Shown: one piece after another, positions 13,230 to 26,463 of the stretch | How positions within the stretch are numbered: position 1 is the first letter of the stretch | Layout: each line of letters opens with the position of its first letter | From: Gammaproteobacteria bacterium | GTDB lineage: Bacteria; Pseudomonadota; Gammaproteobacteria; Ga0077536 | DNA length: 64,000 nucleotides | NCBI GenBank assembly: GCA_016191285.1 | Contig: JACPPA010000038.1 | Coordinates: 62,001 to 126,000 of the forward strand | Direction: 5' to 3' | Notes under the pieces: model-generated | Seen by the model: the letters and a program-made list of their open reading frames with translations, nothing else | What the model was told of the DNA's origin: nothing | Databases searched by the model: none | Program-made: the position numbers and the translations under genes

Positions 13230-13302
13230 GTCGTCCCGGCGCAGGCCGGGACCCAGTCCCAGAAGGTGCTTTGACTGGATTCCGGCTTGCGCCGGAATGA
13301 CG
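13230..13302 (+). repeat. dispersed inverted repeat, family B (GTCATTCCGGC...GCCGGAATGAC type)
   Basis: The left arm GTCGTCCCGGCGCAGGCCGG (13230 onward, continuing GACCCAGTC) faces the right arm GACTGGATTCCGGCTTGCGC (continuing CGGAATGACG) across about 14 bases. The same unit recurs near 25582. It fills much of the 259-base gap between the protease and the HIT gene. The family is widespread between genes in proteobacterial genomes. The rest of the gap shows nothing convincing, though the promoters of both flanking, divergent genes should lie here. Confidence 0.75.
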
Positions 13303-13368
13303 ATGTGTTGGGCCGTCGCGCTTCCGCAGGTGGTCGGTTATTCTACTTCGCGATTTTAGTGACACAGT

Positions 13369-17928: not shown

Positions 17929-18244
17929 GACACCCAGTGCGCCGGGCAAAGCCGGTAGACGAGAGTGGAGGTGGAATTCCTCTATCCGGTAAGAGCTAGC
18001 GACTCGCCGGAGCCCCGAGTCATGGGCGAGTCTGTTCGTGAGGGCAGCCGCTAAGCGTTGACAGGGGAAAGTGCAGGCCCAGTATTGAGCTCTGAAATCA
18101 CCGTGAGGAACGCCGACCTTGTTGGGTGAGGGGGAAGGCAATATGCGGCGGAAGCGCTATCGCAAGCCTTCGTCGTGGTTCCTCGGAGTCATAGACCTGA
18201 AGCATGCACGAATGTCTTTTACACGGAACCCGGGAGGTCCTGAG

Positions 18245-18978
18245 TGTGGCCGAAGGAGTGGCGTCTGCGAGGAAGGCATCAGAGTTCCCCAAGGGGCGGT
18301 GTGTTCACCGTTGTTAGCGAACGTGTATTTGACGACGCTATCGACCGGTGGGTGCATGGGTGGCGACAGCGAGCGGCACGCGGAGCGGTGTCGATCGCGC
18401 GCTATGCGGATGATTTTGTCATTGGCGTGCAGTATCGCGCCGATGGCGAGCAATTGCAGGGAGGCTTGCAACAGCGGCTGGAGCGGTATGGGTTACGACT
18501 GCATGCTGAGAAGACGCGGTTGCTAGAGTTTGGCCGGTTCGCGGCGGCGAATCGTGCGCGGCGTGACGAAGGGAAGCCGGAGACCTTCGACTTTCTCGGG
18601 TTCACGCACTGTTGCGCGGTGCGTCGCAACGATGGCGGCTATGCGTTGCAGCGGCGTTCAATCGCGAAGCGCGTGCGTGCGTTTCTGCAGCGCATCAAGA
18701 CGGGGTTACGGCAGCAGTATGCGGAGTCGGTGAACTGGCAGGGGCAATGGCTGCGACAGAAGGTGCAGGGGTATTTTCTCTACCACGCGGTGCCGGGGAA
18801 CCGGGCTGCGTTGGAGACCGTGCGCCGTGAAGTCAATCGGCTGTGGTTGCGTGTATTACGCCGTCGCAGTCAGCACCATGCGATGCCCTGGTCCCGACTT
18901 ACAGGCTGCTGGATACGCCGGTGGATCCCGTCGACGCGCATCATCCATCCCTACCCGAACCAGCGCTTTGCGTTTTGA
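18245..18978 (+). pseudogene. group II intron reverse transcriptase/maturase, truncated and frameshifted
   Basis: Two frames together give the C-terminal half of an LtrA-like protein. Frame one (to about 18331) reads EGIRVPQGAVCSPLLANVYL, which is RT motif 4. A shift near 18328-18333 moves to frame two with DDAIDRWVHGW, then RYADDFVIG with the catalytic YADD (about 18400-18417), then LRLHAEKTRLLEFGRFAA, ETFDFLGFTH, the X/thumb region and GYFLYHAVPGN, ending LRRRSQHHAMPWSR and HPYPNQRFAF. RT motifs 0-3 at the N terminus are absent. It cannot encode a working enzyme without recoding. Confidence 0.85.
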
Positions 18979-19276: not shown

Positions 19277-21412
19277 ATGGCCCGAGAAGTCCTAGCTCTG
19301 GCAATGGATGCCGGCGGCACGATGACCGATACCTTTCTGGTCGACAAGGAAGGCAATTTTGTCATCGGCAAGGCGCCGAGCACTCCTTGGGACGAGTCAG
19401 AGGGATTCATCGAATCCGCCCAAGACGCGTTTATGCAGTGGCAACTGGATGAACGCACGGCCTTCGCGCAGTTTGAAGTCGCGGTCTATTCCGGGACGAC
19501 TATGCTCAACACTTTGCTTACCCGCACCGGCCGCAAGATTGGGCTCATCACGACCAAGGGCTTCGAGGACATCCTGCTGATGGAGCAAGGTCGTCAGGTC
19601 TGGTCCGGCTATTCCTATGCCGACCGGTTGCATTCGGCGACCCACGTGCACAATCAGCCTTTGGTGCCGCGTCGGCGGATTCGGGGCATTTCCGAGCGCA
19701 CCAACATGTTCGGCACAGTCGCGATCCCGCTGTATGAAAAAGACGCACGCGCGGCGGCTGAAGAACTCTTGACGCAAGATCTCCAAGGCGTGGCCATCTG
19801 TTTCTTGCATTCCTATGCGAATCCGCAAAACGAGAAGCGCATGGAGGCCATCTGCGGCGACGTGATGCAGGCGAAGGGGATCAATATCCCGATTTATTTG
19901 TCCTCGCATATTCGACCGGTCATCCGCGAGAATCAACGCGTCAATGCTACGACGATCGAAGCCTATGCGGCCGATCCGGTACGCAAACAACTCCACAATG
20001 TGGAAAACCGCGCGACCAGTCGCGGCTATCGCAAGCAGATGACGACTATGCTGTCTTACGGTGGGCTCGCCAACATTCGCCATCCGCGTTTACACGAGAC
20101 GCTGATCTCGGGGCCGATCGGTGGCATGTTGGGGGCGCATTACGTGGCGAAACTCATCGGCGCGCCGAATGTGTTGGCCATCGACATGGGCGGCACGAGC
20201 TATGACTTCGGTCTCATCACCAACGGCACGTTTAATCTTAACAACGAACCGGAAATCGCGCGTTTCCGCCTCGCGCTTCCGAGTATCGAACTCGACAGCA
20301 TTCGCGGCGGCGCGGGCTTGTATCTTTCGGTCGATCCGATCACGAACCGCATCATCATGGGGCCGGAAGGCGCCGGTGCCAGTCCGGGTCCGGTGTGCTT
20401 CGATCGCGGCAACAAGCAACCGACCATCACCGATTGCCTGGCGATCAACGGGTATTTGAACAAGAACAATTTCTTGGGCGGCAAGATCAAGCTCAACCTT
20501 CTCGCGGCTCAAAAGGAAATCAAGACCCAGCTTGCCGATAAGATTGGTCTCAATGTGCACGATGCGGCGGATGGCATCATCAAGCTATGGTTGCAGACCG
20601 CACTGGACGCGACCCGGCGCGCGATCCAAGTTCGCGGCGGCGACGTCGCCGATTACGTGATCATGGGCTATGGCGGCGCCGGTCCGATGGTGCTGGCGGG
20701 GGTTTCTGAAGGCCAGCCTTTTAAAGGCGTGGTGACCTTCCCGTTCGCAGCGGCGTTCTCGGCTTTCGGATGCACGACAACGGATTATTCGCATCGATAT
20801 ACGCGGTCGAGTCTATTCAGCTTGCAACACAACTCTGATACGGCGGCAAAGGAAGTAGTCGCCAAAGGACTGACCGAGCTCTGGAACACGCTTGAAGCCG
20901 AAGCGAAGGAGAGTTTCGAGAGCGAAGGCATGGAGTTGAGCAAGGTAACGTACAAGCGGATCGCGTTCGTGCGCTACGGCGGGCAGCTCGACGAAGTCGA
21001 AGTACCGCTCGACCGCCCGTGGCAGGCGATCACCGGCGACATCGATCACCTGCTCGATCTCTTTGAAGATCTATACACCAAGATGTTCGCCAAAGCCGCG
21101 AAATACCCCAAAGCCGGCTATGCAATCCTGCAAGTCGCGCTGGTCGCCTCAATCGAAACCAAGAAGCCGGAATTTCCCCTTTTCCCAGATCAGGGTCCAA
21201 CACCCGCTGCCGCGGTGAAGAAAGGCGAGCGAGATCTTTATATCAATGGCAAATGGCAGAAAGCGGGTATTTACGACATGGATTCACTTGAGTCCGGAAA
21301 CGTGATTAATGGACTCGCGATACTGGAACATCCGGCGACGACTTTGCTCGTGCCCGGTACGCGTAAAGCCCGAGTTGATAACCGCAAATTCATTTGGTTG
21401 GAAAATCTGTAA
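19277..21412 (+). CDS. acxA: acetone carboxylase-type beta subunit (HyuA-like ATPase)
   Basis: Protein of 711 residues of the hydantoinase A/oxoprolinase family, matching acetone carboxylase beta (about 717). ATG 19277 follows a clean GGAGG; the upstream open frame has no match. The N-terminal phosphate-binding motif is DAGGTMTDTF (11-20) and a second actin-like motif is DMGGTSYDFG (303-312). In the known enzyme this subunit uses ATP to activate bicarbonate and the ketone. alpha and gamma subunit genes follow at 28 and 2 bases, and the three-gene set is what sets acetone carboxylase apart from plain hydantoinases. Acetone itself is inferred; acetophenone or butanone are alternatives. Confidence 0.82.
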   Translation: MAREVLALAMDAGGTMTDTFLVDKEGNFVIGKAPSTPWDESEGFIESAQDAFMQWQLDERTAFAQFEVAVYSGTTMLNTLLTRTGRKIGLITTKGFEDILLMEQGRQVWSGYSYADRLHSATHVHNQPLVPRRRIRGISERTNMFGTVAIPLYEKDARAAAEELLTQDLQGVAICFLHSYANPQNEKRMEAICGDVMQAKGINIPIYLSSHIRPVIRENQRVNATTIEAYAADPVRKQLHNVENRATSRGYRKQMTTMLSYGGLANIRHPRLHETLISGPIGGMLGAHYVAKLIGAPNVLAIDMGGTSYDFGLITNGTFNLNNEPEIARFRLALPSIELDSIRGGAGLYLSVDPITNRIIMGPEGAGASPGPVCFDRGNKQPTITDCLAINGYLNKNNFLGGKIKLNLLAAQKEIKTQLADKIGLNVHDAADGIIKLWLQTALDATRRAIQVRGGDVADYVIMGYGGAGPMVLAGVSEGQPFKGVVTFPFAAAFSAFGCTTTDYSHRYTRSSLFSLQHNSDTAAKEVVAKGLTELWNTLEAEAKESFESEGMELSKVTYKRIAFVRYGGQLDEVEVPLDRPWQAITGDIDHLLDLFEDLYTKMFAKAAKYPKAGYAILQVALVASIETKKPEFPLFPDQGPTPAAAVKKGERDLYINGKWQKAGIYDMDSLESGNVINGLAILEHPATTLLVPGTRKARVDNRKFIWLENL

Positions 21413-21440
21413 TGTTGAGGCGACGATAGGAGACAAATTT

Positions 21441-23726
21441 ATGAGTGCAATCAAACCCCTTGATGACGCCACTGTTTACATGTCGCTCCGCGCGCGGATT
21501 GAAGGGATGAAGCAGTTGCTCAAATCGACCGGCCATTACAAAGGCGTTCGCGATCTGCGCTTGAAGAAAAAAGACGTCATCCGCTTCGAGCTGCTGTATT
21601 CACGCTTGCAATCGATCGTGATCGGTTCACAGCAGGTCGGATCTAAGGTCTCCTGCTCGCCGGGCACCCGTGAAGTCGGCGAATCGGTCGTCGGGCTGTA
21701 TACCCCGGAAGGCGACGCTATTGTGTTTTCCGGCGGCATCATGGTGCACGTGCATACAATGAGTCGCTTCATCAAATGGATGATTGCGCACGATTACGAA
21801 ATTGATCCCGGCTTTAAACACGGCGACATCTTCGAGAACAACGACACTTACATTGGCGGGGTCCACATCCCGGACGTGATGGATGTCACGCCGATTTTCT
21901 GGAACAGCGAACTGGTCGGCTGGGCCGGCATGGTGACCCACGTGCTCGAAGTCGGCGGCATCACCCCCGGCAGCATGCCGGTGCTCGCCGCCGAACGCTT
22001 CACCGAAGGGCTCATCATCTGCGCCGAGCGCATCGGCGAGCACGACAGCATCTACAAACACTATGAAGTCCGCGCCGAACGTAGCGTGCGTTCGCCGGAT
22101 CTGTGGATTATGGATGCCAAAGCGCGCGTCACCGGAGCGTTGATGACGCGCGACGAGATCCTGGAGACCATCAAGGAATTTGGGTTCGAGTACTACAACG
22201 AGGCCGTTAATGAATATATCGAGAGCGCGCGTCAAGCCCAGCTCGAAAGAGTGAAGACGATGCTGGTGCCGGGCACGTATAAGGAAGTCACGACCTGCGA
22301 CCAGATCATGGAAGGTCAACCGGGATTATCGCCATTGGCAGATGGCAATGTCACGATTATCGAACCGCTGGAGATGATGATCGATGGCAAGGGCAAGATG
22401 ACGATCGATTTCGATGGTTTCGGCTCGTGGCGGTACTGGTCCGGCAACGCCACGCCGGCGGCACTGGAGGGTGGCTTGTTCGTCTCGATGTCGCAGGCCT
22501 TGAATTTCGACGGCCGCATCAATCACGGCAGCTACCTCGCGACCGAACTCAAATTTTCCAAAGGCACGACGGTATGGCCGGATAACAAGTATGCCTCCAC
22601 GTCGCTCGGCTGGAACCTGGTGATGCCGAGCTGGGCCAACTGGTATCGGATGATGGCGCGCGCCACCTACATGCGTGGCTTCGTCGAAGAGACCTTCCTG
22701 TTCGGTGCGCTGACGCCGTGCTACGACGGTGGCGGGATTGACCAGTACGGCAAGGTCTTCGGCGGCACTAACTTCGAACTCGCGGCTCAGGGCAGCGGGG
22801 CGCGCGGTATCGCCGACGGGATCGACTTCGGCTATGTGCTATGGAATCCGGAATCGGACATGGGCAACGCCGAAATCTGGGAGCAACTGTTTCCGCAGTT
22901 GTACCTGTCGCGCAAAATCCTGCCGAATGCGCATGGCTTCGGAAAATATCGGGGCGGGAACGGGTGGCAGTCGCTACTGCTGACCCATAACTCCAACCAG
23001 CTGGTGGTCACCACCGAGCTATGCCAAGCGCGCGCTTTCGACCACCAAGGGATCTTTGGCGGTTATCCGGGCAAGATTCATTACATCTACCTGATGACCG
23101 ATACGGATATCAAAGAGCGCATCGCCAACCAGCAGGAACTGCCCACCGGCGAAGGGGAAGATCCGTTGAACCCGGAACTAACCCGACTGGTGAACGGCAA
23201 GCTGCGGATCTCGCATGGGAACATGACCGCCGACAAGCCCCTCAAGGATGGCGACATTCTGCTGATGCAATACCGCGGGATGGGGGGCTTTGGCGATCCA
23301 TTGGATCGCGACCCTACGCTGATTGAGAAGGATCTCGAAAACGGGATCGTCAGTCGCGCGATGGCGGAAACGATCTGCGGCGCGGTGATCGAACGCAACG
23401 AACAGGAAGCGTGTTGGATGGTCAATCGCGAGAAGACTGTCCAACGGCGCGCCGAGCGCCGCCAAGCGCGGCTCAAGAACGGCGTACCTGTAGCACAGTG
23501 GATGCAACAGCAAAAGCGGCGGATTGAACGCTACGATCTCCCGGACGTCGCCCTCGAGATCTACAAGGACGTGAGCTCGCATTCCCGCAAATGGATTCGC
23601 GAATACCGCGAATTCTGGGGCTTCGATGAATCGTTCACGTTCAATATCCCGGGTATTCGCGACGTGAACCCGTTCGCAATGCGTTCCGGCGAATCACGCG
23701 TCGCCGACAATCCCTTGGAGTTCTGA
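21441..23726 (+). CDS. acxB: acetone carboxylase-type alpha subunit (HyuB-like)
   Basis: Protein of 761 residues of the hydantoinase B family, close to acetone carboxylase alpha (about 775). ATG 21441 has an AGGAG-like site (ATAGGAGAC). The Mn-binding residues of the Xanthobacter enzyme as I recall them (His150, Asp153, His175) have equivalents at the same spacing: His142 and Asp145 in GGVHIPDV, and His167 in GMVTHV. FENNDTYIGG just before and PIFWNSELVGWAG between are also shared. In the known enzyme this subunit joins the activated ketone and carbonate to give acetoacetate. Overall it looks divergent from the characterised enzyme. Confidence 0.82.
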   Translation: MSAIKPLDDATVYMSLRARIEGMKQLLKSTGHYKGVRDLRLKKKDVIRFELLYSRLQSIVIGSQQVGSKVSCSPGTREVGESVVGLYTPEGDAIVFSGGIMVHVHTMSRFIKWMIAHDYEIDPGFKHGDIFENNDTYIGGVHIPDVMDVTPIFWNSELVGWAGMVTHVLEVGGITPGSMPVLAAERFTEGLIICAERIGEHDSIYKHYEVRAERSVRSPDLWIMDAKARVTGALMTRDEILETIKEFGFEYYNEAVNEYIESARQAQLERVKTMLVPGTYKEVTTCDQIMEGQPGLSPLADGNVTIIEPLEMMIDGKGKMTIDFDGFGSWRYWSGNATPAALEGGLFVSMSQALNFDGRINHGSYLATELKFSKGTTVWPDNKYASTSLGWNLVMPSWANWYRMMARATYMRGFVEETFLFGALTPCYDGGGIDQYGKVFGGTNFELAAQGSGARGIADGIDFGYVLWNPESDMGNAEIWEQLFPQLYLSRKILPNAHGFGKYRGGNGWQSLLLTHNSNQLVVTTELCQARAFDHQGIFGGYPGKIHYIYLMTDTDIKERIANQQELPTGEGEDPLNPELTRLVNGKLRISHGNMTADKPLKDGDILLMQYRGMGGFGDPLDRDPTLIEKDLENGIVSRAMAETICGAVIERNEQEACWMVNREKTVQRRAERRQARLKNGVPVAQWMQQQKRRIERYDLPDVALEIYKDVSSHSRKWIREYREFWGFDESFTFNIPGIRDVNPFAMRSGESRVADNPLEF

Positions 23727-23728
23727 TC

Positions 23729-24232
23729 ATGGCCGGACACATAGTCGAACTGGACGAAGCGGCTCTCGGGCAGTTGATCGACGGCAACCTGCCGTGGGAC
23801 GACGTGCACCATATCCAATCGTCGTACAAAGACCCCAAGCGCTTTGATACCTATGTGAAAGTGTTGCAATCGCGGATGGCGTGGAAGAACCCCATTGTCC
23901 TCCCGCTCTCCCCGTACCTCTCGATCGTCAAAAGTGACAGCGGGATCTATGTGGTGAAGTGCGTGTGCGGACAGGACTTCGGGGACTACCGCCGCAACTG
24001 GAAACTTTCCGCGCTGATCAACGTGCGCGACACGGAGGAGAAGCTGCAGGAACTGTGGCCCGGCCCGCGCTGTCCGGATCCCGAGAAGAACGAAGTGCGC
24101 GAGTTCTACTGCCCGGGATGCGGTCTTCAACTTGAAGTGGACGCGGTGCCACCCGGCTATCCGATCCTCGCCAATTTCACCCCCAACCTAGAGGCGTTCT
24201 ACCGCGACTGGTTAGGACGAGCACTGCCGTAA
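23729..24232 (+). CDS. acxC: acetone carboxylase-type gamma subunit
   Basis: Small subunit of 167 residues, close to the known 168 or so. It carries two cysteine pairs that could hold the zinc ion of this subunit: Cys78 and Cys80 (KCVCGQDFGDYRRNWK) and Cys128 and Cys131 (FYCPGCG). Its presence two bases after acxB is the strongest evidence that this is an acetone carboxylase-like complex rather than a hydantoinase. The ending PNLEAFYRDWLG is typical. No regulator or thiolase gene is next to the operon, so regulation and downstream use of the product lie elsewhere. Confidence 0.85.
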   Translation: MAGHIVELDEAALGQLIDGNLPWDDVHHIQSSYKDPKRFDTYVKVLQSRMAWKNPIVLPLSPYLSIVKSDSGIYVVKCVCGQDFGDYRRNWKLSALINVRDTEEKLQELWPGPRCPDPEKNEVREFYCPGCGLQLEVDAVPPGYPILANFTPNLEAFYRDWLGRALP

Positions 24233-24488: not shown

Positions 24489-25072
24489 TCAGGTCCGAGT
24501 GTTTCGGCGAAAAGCGAGTCCGGCAAGCCCAACCAATCCGGAGCCAAGGAAGTAGAACGCGGCAGGAAGCGGCACGAGGGTGAGCAGAAGCGAGGTCGAT
24601 CTGATTATGCTCGGATTTATTGGATCACGGATAGCGCCGCCTACTAACAATTGTTCGGAATCGTTAATTGCGACGGCGTCTCTCAGAGATATCACCAAAT
24701 TTGCAAGCGGATCGTTCAAGTCTAAAAGTGAATTGATGTTATATAAGATTCCGTTCTCCCATAGCGCGGCGGAAGTGTCGCTGCCTATAAATTTTCCTAA
24801 GTCGGTGAATGTTTCCTTATCCCATAGAAATCCACCCGTAGACGTGTATCCAATTACTTGACCGGCATCATTAACTGCCAAGGCATGGGGCTATAAAGAC
24901 CCGCCGTACAATCGCATCCGTACAGCGGGTTAAAGCCACCCGGCACCCCGAGATCGGTCATCATTCCGTTTTGCCAAAAGAAGGCATGTGGCCCGACATA
25001 AGGCGCAAAATTAGGAGAAGGGGTCCGAAAAATCGCGCTATCGCCAACTGGTAAGTGCGGCGGGACAACCCG
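24489..25072 (-). pseudogene. HAF-repeat protein with VPLPA-CTERM tail, broken
   Basis: Two minus-strand frames joined by a shift near 24893 give about 190 residues. The upstream part has HAFFWQNGMMTDLGVPGG. The downstream part has ALAVNDAGQVIGYTSTGG, GFLWDKETFTDLGKF and AALWENGILYNINSLLD. These are HAF-type repeats, each pairing a WxxG segment with a TDLG or INDxGQ segment. The C terminus is a sorting tail: VPLPAAFYFLGSGLVGLAGL followed by AFRRNTRT, with a motif, hydrophobic span and basic end as in VPLPA-CTERM proteins handled by exosortase. No start or signal peptide is present. The A+T-richer composition differs from the neighbours, pointing to transfer and decay. Confidence 0.7.
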
Positions 25073-25804
25073 CTATCGTCTGAGCTTTTTCCAACGGGGA
25101 AGGAGACTGCCGGTGGCGCAAGCAAGGTTGTCCATGGGCGAGATCAGAGAGACGCTGCGTCTCAAGTTTGAAGCCGGCATACGATCAAGCTGTATGTACA
25201 TAGATTCGAAAATATAAAGAAGCGCCGACTTATCCCCTCTGCGCAAATCATCGCGCGCACCAAGCCATGCTTCATAGCGTGGGGAAGCTAAAGCCTTAGG
25301 AAGCGATTCTAAGGCTGTACTCGATGTCTTCATCGGTAGCGCAGTGGCCTCCCGACTCGCTCTGACGGCGACTCGGCTTCTTTCTTCGCGCGACGCTTGG
25401 GCAGGAATTCCGTGACCCTAATTTTTTAATGTTCGAAATCCAGTCTTGAGAACCCCCTTTGCGTATTTCTTCCCCGAGCTTCAGCGTTAAGTGGTGAACA
25501 CTCTTAGACTTAAATGCTCTAAGTGCGGAATGGCACTTACAAAAGCTGAAATGCCGGGAAAAATGCACAATCTTTGCCCGTCGTCATTCCGGTGAATGCC
25601 GGAATCCAGTCAAACAATGAATTCTTTTTTCACTGGACTTAGTGCTCGGCGCACGGGGTGACGGCGTAAACCGCGCTTAAGTAAGTGCCATTCCTCTCAG
25701 TGCGCTTTTACAAAAACGGTCTGTTTTTTCCGCAATCGACACCGATAGTTCATCGTGGTTTTCAATCTGCATAATTCGGCGCTGGCTTAGCGAAGCGGCC
25801 TACC
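25073..25804. other. degenerate stretch with no recognised gene
   Basis: Two short minus-strand frames (25073-25333 with 86 codons, 25296-25568 with 90 codons) overlap each other, have no ribosome sites I can support and no recognisable family. A family B repeat lies at 25580-25612. The composition is A+T-richer and looks like decayed island DNA between the HAF-repeat relic and the integrase relic. Confidence 0.4.
25580..25612 (+). repeat. dispersed repeat, family B (second copy)
   Basis: GTCGTCATTCCGGTGAATGCCGGAATCCAGTC matches the arms of the element at 13230-13302. The partner arm to the right (TTTTTTCACTGGACTTAGTG) is decayed, so this copy is degenerate. Confidence 0.7.
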
Positions 25805-26220
25805 ATCATTTACGTGACGCGATTCCGATTGGAATAACGATGGCGCTCGCAGCGAGTTGATCGTGATAATCGGACCACTCTGGGGCCCTTAGCTCGCCAG
25901 GTCGCACTAATCGACGCGGCGCGAGACGGAGAGCCGCTCTTGTCACAGCTTCCCCCGCAAAGCCGTCGATGGCGCGCATCAGAGTGCCGACGGCCTTCGG
26001 ACGGTAATTGCCGCGTGATGTTTCTCCTTAGCGGGCGGCAGCGCATCACGCAAATCGGCGGCAGGGTCCCGGTCAGCACGCCCGGTGGCAATCGCGTAGC
26101 GGAAAATTTGTCCCATGATTAGACCTACGCGGCGCGCAAGCTCACGGGCGGCACGCGCTTCTATTCGACGAAGCACGGCGAGCAATTCAGGTGCCTTCAC
26201 CTCGAAAAGCTCGGGCAGTT
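25805..26220 (-). pseudogene. P4-type tyrosine integrase fragment, frameshifted
   Basis: The first fragment (about 26220-25995) reads APELLAVLRRIEARAARELA and GQIFRYAIATGRADRDPAAD, then LRDALPPAKEKHHAAIT, the core of P4-like island integrases. After a frame change near 25990 the second fragment continues LMRAIDGFAGEAVTRAALRL and VRPGELRAPEWSD, then stops at about 25805. The N-terminal DNA-binding part and the entire HxxR...Y catalytic end are missing. It sits about 160 bases from tRNA-Leu, the kind of site such integrases use, so this is probably the scar of an integrated island. Confidence 0.8.
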
Positions 26221-26376: not shown

Positions 26377-26463
26377 TGGTGCCGGGGGGGGGACTCGAAC
26401 CCCCACATGGTTTCCCATACCGGATTTTGAGTCCGGCGCGTCTACCAATTCCGCCATCCCGGC
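26377..26463 (-). tRNA. tRNA-Leu (CAA anticodon)
   Basis: On the minus strand the 5' end is GCCGGGATGGCGGAATTGGTA, a leucine-type D arm. The anticodon stem CCGGA/TCCGG encloses the loop CTCAAAA, so the anticodon is CAA (reads UUG). A long variable arm (TATGGGAAACCATG) confirms class II. The T loop is TTCGAGT and CCA is encoded. The plus strand shows a run of nine G here. With that run, position 7 (A) faces C at position 66, an A:C mismatch in the acceptor stem that may be real or an error in the homopolymer. Confidence 0.95.

Follow-up and report, generated by a model that had tools for sequence, protein, structure and literature searches.

A divergent acetone carboxylase-type operon in a gammaproteobacterial family with multiple gamma-containing carboxylases

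The operon and its gene products

The 64,000-nucleotide stretch of the Gammaproteobacteria bacterium assembly GCA_016191285.1 analyzed here (contig JACPPA010000038.1, positions 62,001 to 126,000; hereafter, the window) contains three complete, near-contiguous open reading frames (ORFs) at 19277-24232 on the plus strand, in the acxABC order, for the beta, alpha, and gamma subunits of an acetone carboxylase (Acx)-type enzyme (Table 1). They represent a new lineage within a known family, the HydA/HydB carboxylases, of which few enzymes have been characterized (PMC5214803). Pfam assigns the proteins to Hydantoinase_A (beta, 8e-70), Hydantoinase_B (alpha, 3e-75), and Acetone_carb_G (gamma, 2e-36). 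In a sequence search of the Protein Data Bank (PDB), the top relatives are chains of Xanthobacter autotrophicus acetone carboxylase (alpha 460, beta 571, and gamma 160 bits), while chains of acetophenone carboxylase (Apc) score lower (184, 340, and 37 bits, respectively). A longer alpha ORF, beginning at 21309, would overlap the beta gene; the ATG at 21441, from which we number residues, is also the start residue of the ORFs picked in both orthologs described below.

Gene content separates the operon from two groups of relatives. The Aromatoleum acetophenone carboxylase ApcABCDE (PDB 5l9w) has homologous HydA, HydB, and gamma subunits, but Apc operons encode two HydA-type subunits in the order ABCD(E) (PMC5214803), whereas the window operon holds a single HydA-type gene and a longer gamma (chain 5l9w_C is 129 aa); its proteins also fall far below the cut-offs of the NCBIfam Apc equivalog models. 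ATP-dependent hydantoinases and caprolactamase (PDB 7hk5, 9h03, 6yra) share the HydA/HydB domains and the fold, but these and the oxoprolinases are two-subunit or fused enzymes without gamma (PMC5214803, for the hydantoinases), and a gamma gene is present here. Alpha (761 aa) and gamma (167 aa) satisfy the length criteria set for Acx in PMC5214803. Aligned with 999 chains each, the AlphaFold models of alpha (pLDDT 69.5) and beta (pLDDT 83.8) likewise find their best match in acetone carboxylase (alpha Z 26.8, rmsd 6.0 over 668 residues; beta Z 49.9, rmsd 5.1 over 694 residues); the alpha model drops below pLDDT 50 at residues 138-145, and is too poor there for metal geometry.

Because the operon lies between an intron relic on one side and an integrase relic and a short HAF/PEP-CTERM-like ORF on the other, it could be imagined as a decaying remnant stranded among mobile elements. 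This is very improbable: all three frames and the catalytic residues are intact, and G+C content is host-like (0.575, against 0.576 for the host). Six comparisons with the two orthologs give dN/dS of 0.055-0.109, a rough ratio since dS (1.07-2.7) is near saturation; the operon is therefore maintained under purifying selection.

Table 1. Features of the operon and its surroundings, in window coordinates. Xa, X. autotrophicus acetone carboxylase.
Feature	Position	Strand	Remark
Group II intron relic: D1-D4-6 RNA match and truncated reverse transcriptase/maturase ORF	17974..18978	+	
acxA-like gene, beta subunit (HydA type, ASKHA kinase fold)	19277..21412	+	711 aa
acxB-like gene, alpha subunit (HydB type, metal site)	21441..23726	+	761 aa
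Codon of alpha E81 (Xa E89, switching carboxylate)	21681..21683	+	Alignment; role from PMC12250083
Codon of alpha H142 (Xa H150, metal ligand)	21864..21866	+	Alignment
Codon of alpha D145 (Xa D153, metal ligand)	21873..21875	+	Alignment
Codon of alpha H167 (Xa H175, metal ligand)	21939..21941	+	Alignment
acxC-like gene, gamma subunit, four Zn-type Cys	23729..24232	+	167 aa
Short HAF-repeat/PEP-CTERM-like ORF, probably a relic	24489..24881	-	All scores below cut-offs
Integrase relic beside tRNA-Leu	25982..26200	-	Phage_int_M 2e-17
tRNA-Leu(caa), right edge of genus-variable interval	26377..26463	-	

Catalytic and metal-site residues

The window operon shares with AcxABC of X. autotrophicus Py2 (PDB 5m45, 5svb, 5svc) its gene order, subunit sizes, and fold, and most of the residues to which a role has been assigned in that enzyme (PMC5543143, PMC12250083). 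Alpha H142, D145, and H167 align with the Xanthobacter metal ligands, as the first-pass annotation had proposed from their spacing; the switching Glu and H103 (Xa H111) are also kept. In beta, the phosphate motifs DAGGTMTDT and DMGGTSYD and F399 (Xa F405) are conserved, with T385 in place of Xa S391. Gamma retains the two Cys pairs previously noted (C78/C80 and C128/C131) and has an additional C115. The Cys of this Zn site are partly missing in the gamma of a paralog on contig C16 of the same genome (L029:9702-10208), and in that of Paracoccus sp. MA (L178:9344-9820), a member of the canonical group defined below.

The same annotation had also treated the metal spacing as evidence for an acetone carboxylase, and this argument fails. 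The His-Asp-His (H-D-H) triad occurs in ApcD, in the Apc-type sequences of the host genome, and in all four of its HydB genes that have no gamma match alongside; being family-wide, it is not diagnostic of acetone carboxylase, we reject it as proof of one, and it cannot tell carboxylases from hydrolase-type relatives. The identification as a divergent, three-gene, acetone carboxylase-type operon stands instead on protein families, PDB relatives, and trees.

Some positions depart from the Xanthobacter enzyme. Three of its four gate Trp, proposed as a possible metal filter (PMC10865871), are kept (W391, W398, W468), and the fourth (Xa W438) is C427. The ligand-free Xanthobacter structure has a contact between alpha E85 and beta N578, whereas the window has R77 and D572, which might, at a guess, form a salt bridge between alpha and beta. 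Among the alignment rows, E at Xa 85 with N at Xa 578 is found in eight canonical-group members and Natronorubrum; remaining rows of the Acx branch carry R or K at the first position and D, E, S, N, or T at the second, and R occupies Xa 85 at 80/80 named loci among the matches listed. Most non-canonical lineages therefore share the change, which does not single out this one.

Phylogenetic placement

Trees were built from 53 alpha and 53 beta sequences, with an additional 34-row alpha tree including four HydB rows. In both 53-sequence trees, the window protein groups with its two orthologs at 100/100 support, on a long stem that lies outside the clade of the characterized Xanthobacter enzyme. 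The latter clade, the canonical group, comprises Xanthobacter, Paracoccus, Cupriavidus, Acidibrevibacterium, Natronorubrum, and three operons from the host family; its support is 100/99 in alpha and 95/88 in beta with Natronorubrum, and 100/100 without it. The window clade instead joins a cosmopolitan clade of uncharacterized Acx-like operons (alpha 84/79, or 87/94 in the 34-row tree; beta 98/94). Forcing the window clade together with six canonical rows costs 105 log-likelihood units (approximately unbiased test, p-AU 3.6e-46). The divergence from the characterized enzyme that the first-pass annotation described is thus borne out by phylogeny, with alpha and beta both remaining in the Acx branch.

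The 34-row tree also bears on whether the operon might encode an ATP-dependent amidohydrolase (of hydantoinase, oxoprolinase, or lactamase type) with a retained gamma. Such an enzyme would have the same HydA/HydB domains, and hydantoinase-type HydB carries the same triad; moreover, a HydB-gamma fusion in the host genome (a 760-aa ORF next to a HydA gene, G000:C40:265709-269601; L035:13700-18243, minus strand) groups with a gamma-less HydB from contig C18, apart from the Acx and two Apc-type rows, and gamma is therefore not exclusive to Acx and Apc. But the nearest solved relatives of all three subunits are acetone carboxylase, subunit lengths fit Acx, and a 27-row Acx set that includes the window is separated with 100/100 support from two Apc-type rows, four HydB rows, and the fusion. 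Clustering within gamma-less hydantoinases was not seen in this tree, and we consider an amidohydrolase improbable. Directly after a HydA/HydB pair on C18 lies a gene for a Rieske ring-hydroxylating alpha subunit (L038:5006-6619, minus strand; 538 aa), whose N-terminal Cys pair appears gamma-like by eye, with no PF08882 match.

Orthologs and paralogs

Among 36 genomes of the host family, three carry the operon, each belonging to a different genus; absences are inexact, because several genomes are incomplete (down to 57%). The orthologs are 84% (genome G033) and 80% (G020) identical, while the best alpha match in five genomes of the host genus is 39%. Outside the family, matches at E 1e-140 or better in 369 genomes drawn from the class reach at most 39%, and among the matches listed from named genomes (80 loci) the highest alpha identity is 46%. 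Compared with the other genera, the operon proteins show 80-84% identity, but SecD only 70% and 67% (QueA of G033, a 38-residue fragment, was excluded from the comparison); further carboxylase genes of the family exceed SecD in conservation too, the type on contig C21 reaching 89% within the genus. Horizontal transfer may lie behind the patchy distribution, but the SecD contrast has to be set against these other carboxylase genes, host-like G+C, and near-saturated dS.

The host genome contains six gamma-family loci, and the window operon is therefore one of several paralogs. Three have one HydA, one HydB, and a long gamma: the window operon, a locus on C16 with the same order, and one on C21 ordered HydB-gamma-HydA, whose alphas are mutually 29-38% identical. 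Two Apc-type clusters lie on C40 and C49, and the sixth locus is the HydB-gamma fusion described above, with its HydA. In the alpha tree, none of the five other gamma-family loci falls in the canonical group. G033, on the other hand, carries a canonical-group operon (L077) besides its ortholog of the window operon (L071). A genome holding several diverged gamma-containing carboxylases with the same catalytic residues constitutes a natural set for the study of ketone and metal choice. The host family (f1) is rich in HydB-type genes, with 24 or 25 alpha-query matches each in G013, G020, and G033.

Regulation

At the Cupriavidus pinatubonensis and Acidibrevibacterium loci, an annotated sigma-54 activator gene (AcxR type) adjoins the operon; the ORF list of the window contains none beside the operon, in keeping with the earlier annotation. 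The PF00158 matches on this contig are a strong one ~65 kb away (C3:151555) and a weak one ~54 kb away (C3:140218), inside an 864-aa frame. Upstream of the beta gene, no -24/-12 sigma-54 site was found with two or fewer mismatches to the consensus.

Proposed function

We propose, with a probability of roughly 0.58, that the three genes specify a functional ATP-dependent ketone carboxylase belonging to the Acx branch, one of several paralogs, whose main substrate is not acetone or whose range is broader. By analogy with the Xanthobacter enzyme, from which we infer the mechanism, the identity of the metal, and the substrate class, ATP-dependent ketone carboxylation by the Acx mechanism would be the likeliest function. 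The subunits would assemble as (alpha-beta-gamma)2, with gamma as a structural Zn subunit. Beta would spend ATP on phosphorylating first the ketone enolate and then bicarbonate; both phosphorylated intermediates would travel through an internal channel to a divalent metal in alpha. There, with H142, D145, and H167 presumably holding the metal and E81 acting as switching ligand, C-C bond formation would yield a 3-oxoacid.

The operon belongs to a clade of its own, its ortholog in G033 coexists with a canonical-group operon, and no activator gene adjoins it; on balance, acetone is therefore probably not the main substrate. A plain, if diverged, acetone carboxylase of this organism would explain the conserved architecture and catalytic residues, and it would supply a function otherwise missing from a genome in which the five other gamma-family loci all lie outside the Xanthobacter clade. 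This alternative is nonetheless somewhat unlikely: the trees and the constraint test place the operon outside that clade, the 84% ortholog in the draft G033 exists alongside an operon within it, and neither an activator gene nor a sigma-54 promoter match accompanies the operon.

Several points weigh against our proposal. Catalytic residues give no means of telling acetone from other ketones as substrates, and the authors of PMC5214803 report that an attempted substrate-site consensus to separate Apc, Acx, and Hyd enzymes failed. Acetone could be the substrate, since the host genome has no Xanthobacter-clade enzyme. The join of the window clade to its sister clade is weak in alpha and better in beta, and each of the three trees carries flags for long end branches. 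With the intermediate row L074 included in the constrained set, the cost is only 12 units (p 0.03), so that the window clade as a more remote sister of the canonical group is only weakly rejected. G033 is a draft of 450 contigs with 3% contamination, and its two operons, similar in G+C (0.665 and 0.657), lie on 12.2- and 7.1-kb contigs, so that one of them may be misbinned. Lastly, genomic context names no pathway, because the neighbors differ among the three orthologs.

A bolder version is possible but tentative. In it, the window operon and its two orthologs would make up a functional class of their own, the third among the biotin-free ATP-dependent ketone carboxylases, with a substrate other than acetone or acetophenone, such as a methyl ketone that is branched or derived from a terpenoid. 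The carboxylases of the family would have multiplied, and the six gamma-containing paralogs of this cell would serve different ketones. Among the titles and abstract openings listed for acetone and acetophenone carboxylases, none concerned this lineage.

Relatives with an altered metal ligand

The cosmopolitan clade, found in Bacillaceae, Actinomycetes, rhizobia, and Rhodobacteraceae, and including a locus on pSymB of Sinorhizobium meliloti, shares the beta, alpha, and gamma genes and R at Xa 85 with the window, and with 42-46% alpha identity is the closest outside the host family among the matches listed. At the 80 named loci among these matches (the scope of all counts in this section), beta stands beside alpha in 79 and gamma in 78, the misses falling at contig ends. 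The window keeps the ligand H142, whereas Gln replaces Xa H150 at 72/80 loci (L095-L174), from the groups named above and others, 43 of them in Mesorhizobium, with D153, H175, and E89 kept; the other eight have His. A gene for a BCCT or glycine-betaine/choline-type transporter is found in the flanks of 33/72 Gln loci and 0/8 His loci (Pfam checked on two), and a short-chain dehydrogenase/reductase (SDR) gene near 57/72 Gln loci. The Gln variant may have an altered metal site and carboxylate a quaternary-ammonium ketone. Literature searches linking acetone carboxylase with carnitine or betaine gave nothing closer to this variant than PMC9768040, which reports that an anaerobe has a HydA-type protein in a glycine betaine gene cluster. 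In the canonical group, a Natronorubrum bangense plasmid (L177:4577-12160) carries a HydA/HydB pair, followed by transposase genes, with no gamma match or annotated gamma gene alongside.

Genomic surroundings

To the left of the operon lie a HIT-like gene (13369; named from sequence), a glyoxalase-like gene, genes for an enoyl-CoA hydratase and an SDR, a PIN-domain gene with a possible antitoxin gene, and the group II intron relic. The latter, recognized in the first-pass annotation, is confirmed by an RF02005 match (17974-18198) and, at 18244-18978, the C-terminal portion of a group II reverse transcriptase. To the right follow the HAF/PEP-CTERM-like ORF, the integrase relic, tRNA-Leu, and queA; of the two relics annotated on this side, the integrase is upheld, whereas the HAF repeat scores just below its cut-off (22.2 vs 22.65 bits).

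In 3/5 same-genus genomes, the region covered shows both the HIT homolog and queA, separated by 5.5-9.1 kb of other genes (the window has 12.8 kb); in the other two it shows no HIT homolog. No beta, alpha, or gamma match occurs at this locus in any of the five, and in one (G003) a complete 407-aa integrase gene adjoins queA. Because content differs within the genus, the operon is not matched, and an integrase lies by queA in G003, we regard the HIT-queA interval as a variable region.

Among the three orthologous loci, the gene trio alone is conserved. Its neighbors encode nitroreductase-like, enoyl-CoA hydratase, luciferase-like, SDR, and MaoC-type proteins in G033, and a 126-aa protein of unknown function, a MaoC-type protein, a luciferase-like protein, and an SBF transporter in G020; orthology links these two sets neither with one another nor with the neighbors in the window. 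We considered neighboring genes as a clue to the substrate and set this aside: the enoyl-CoA hydratase and SDR of the window are 25% and 34% identical to those near the G033 operon, and non-orthologous. The four G020 neighbors have no window match at E 1e-6; the best matches of the host genome to the MaoC-type and luciferase-like genes (46% and 61%) are on other contigs.

A second exact copy of the last 12 or more bases of the tRNA-Leu 3' end, as an att duplication would leave, was absent from the window. A 34-nucleotide inverted repeat (13270-13303 and 25581-25614; 91% complementary, REP-like by eye) brackets the variable stretch.

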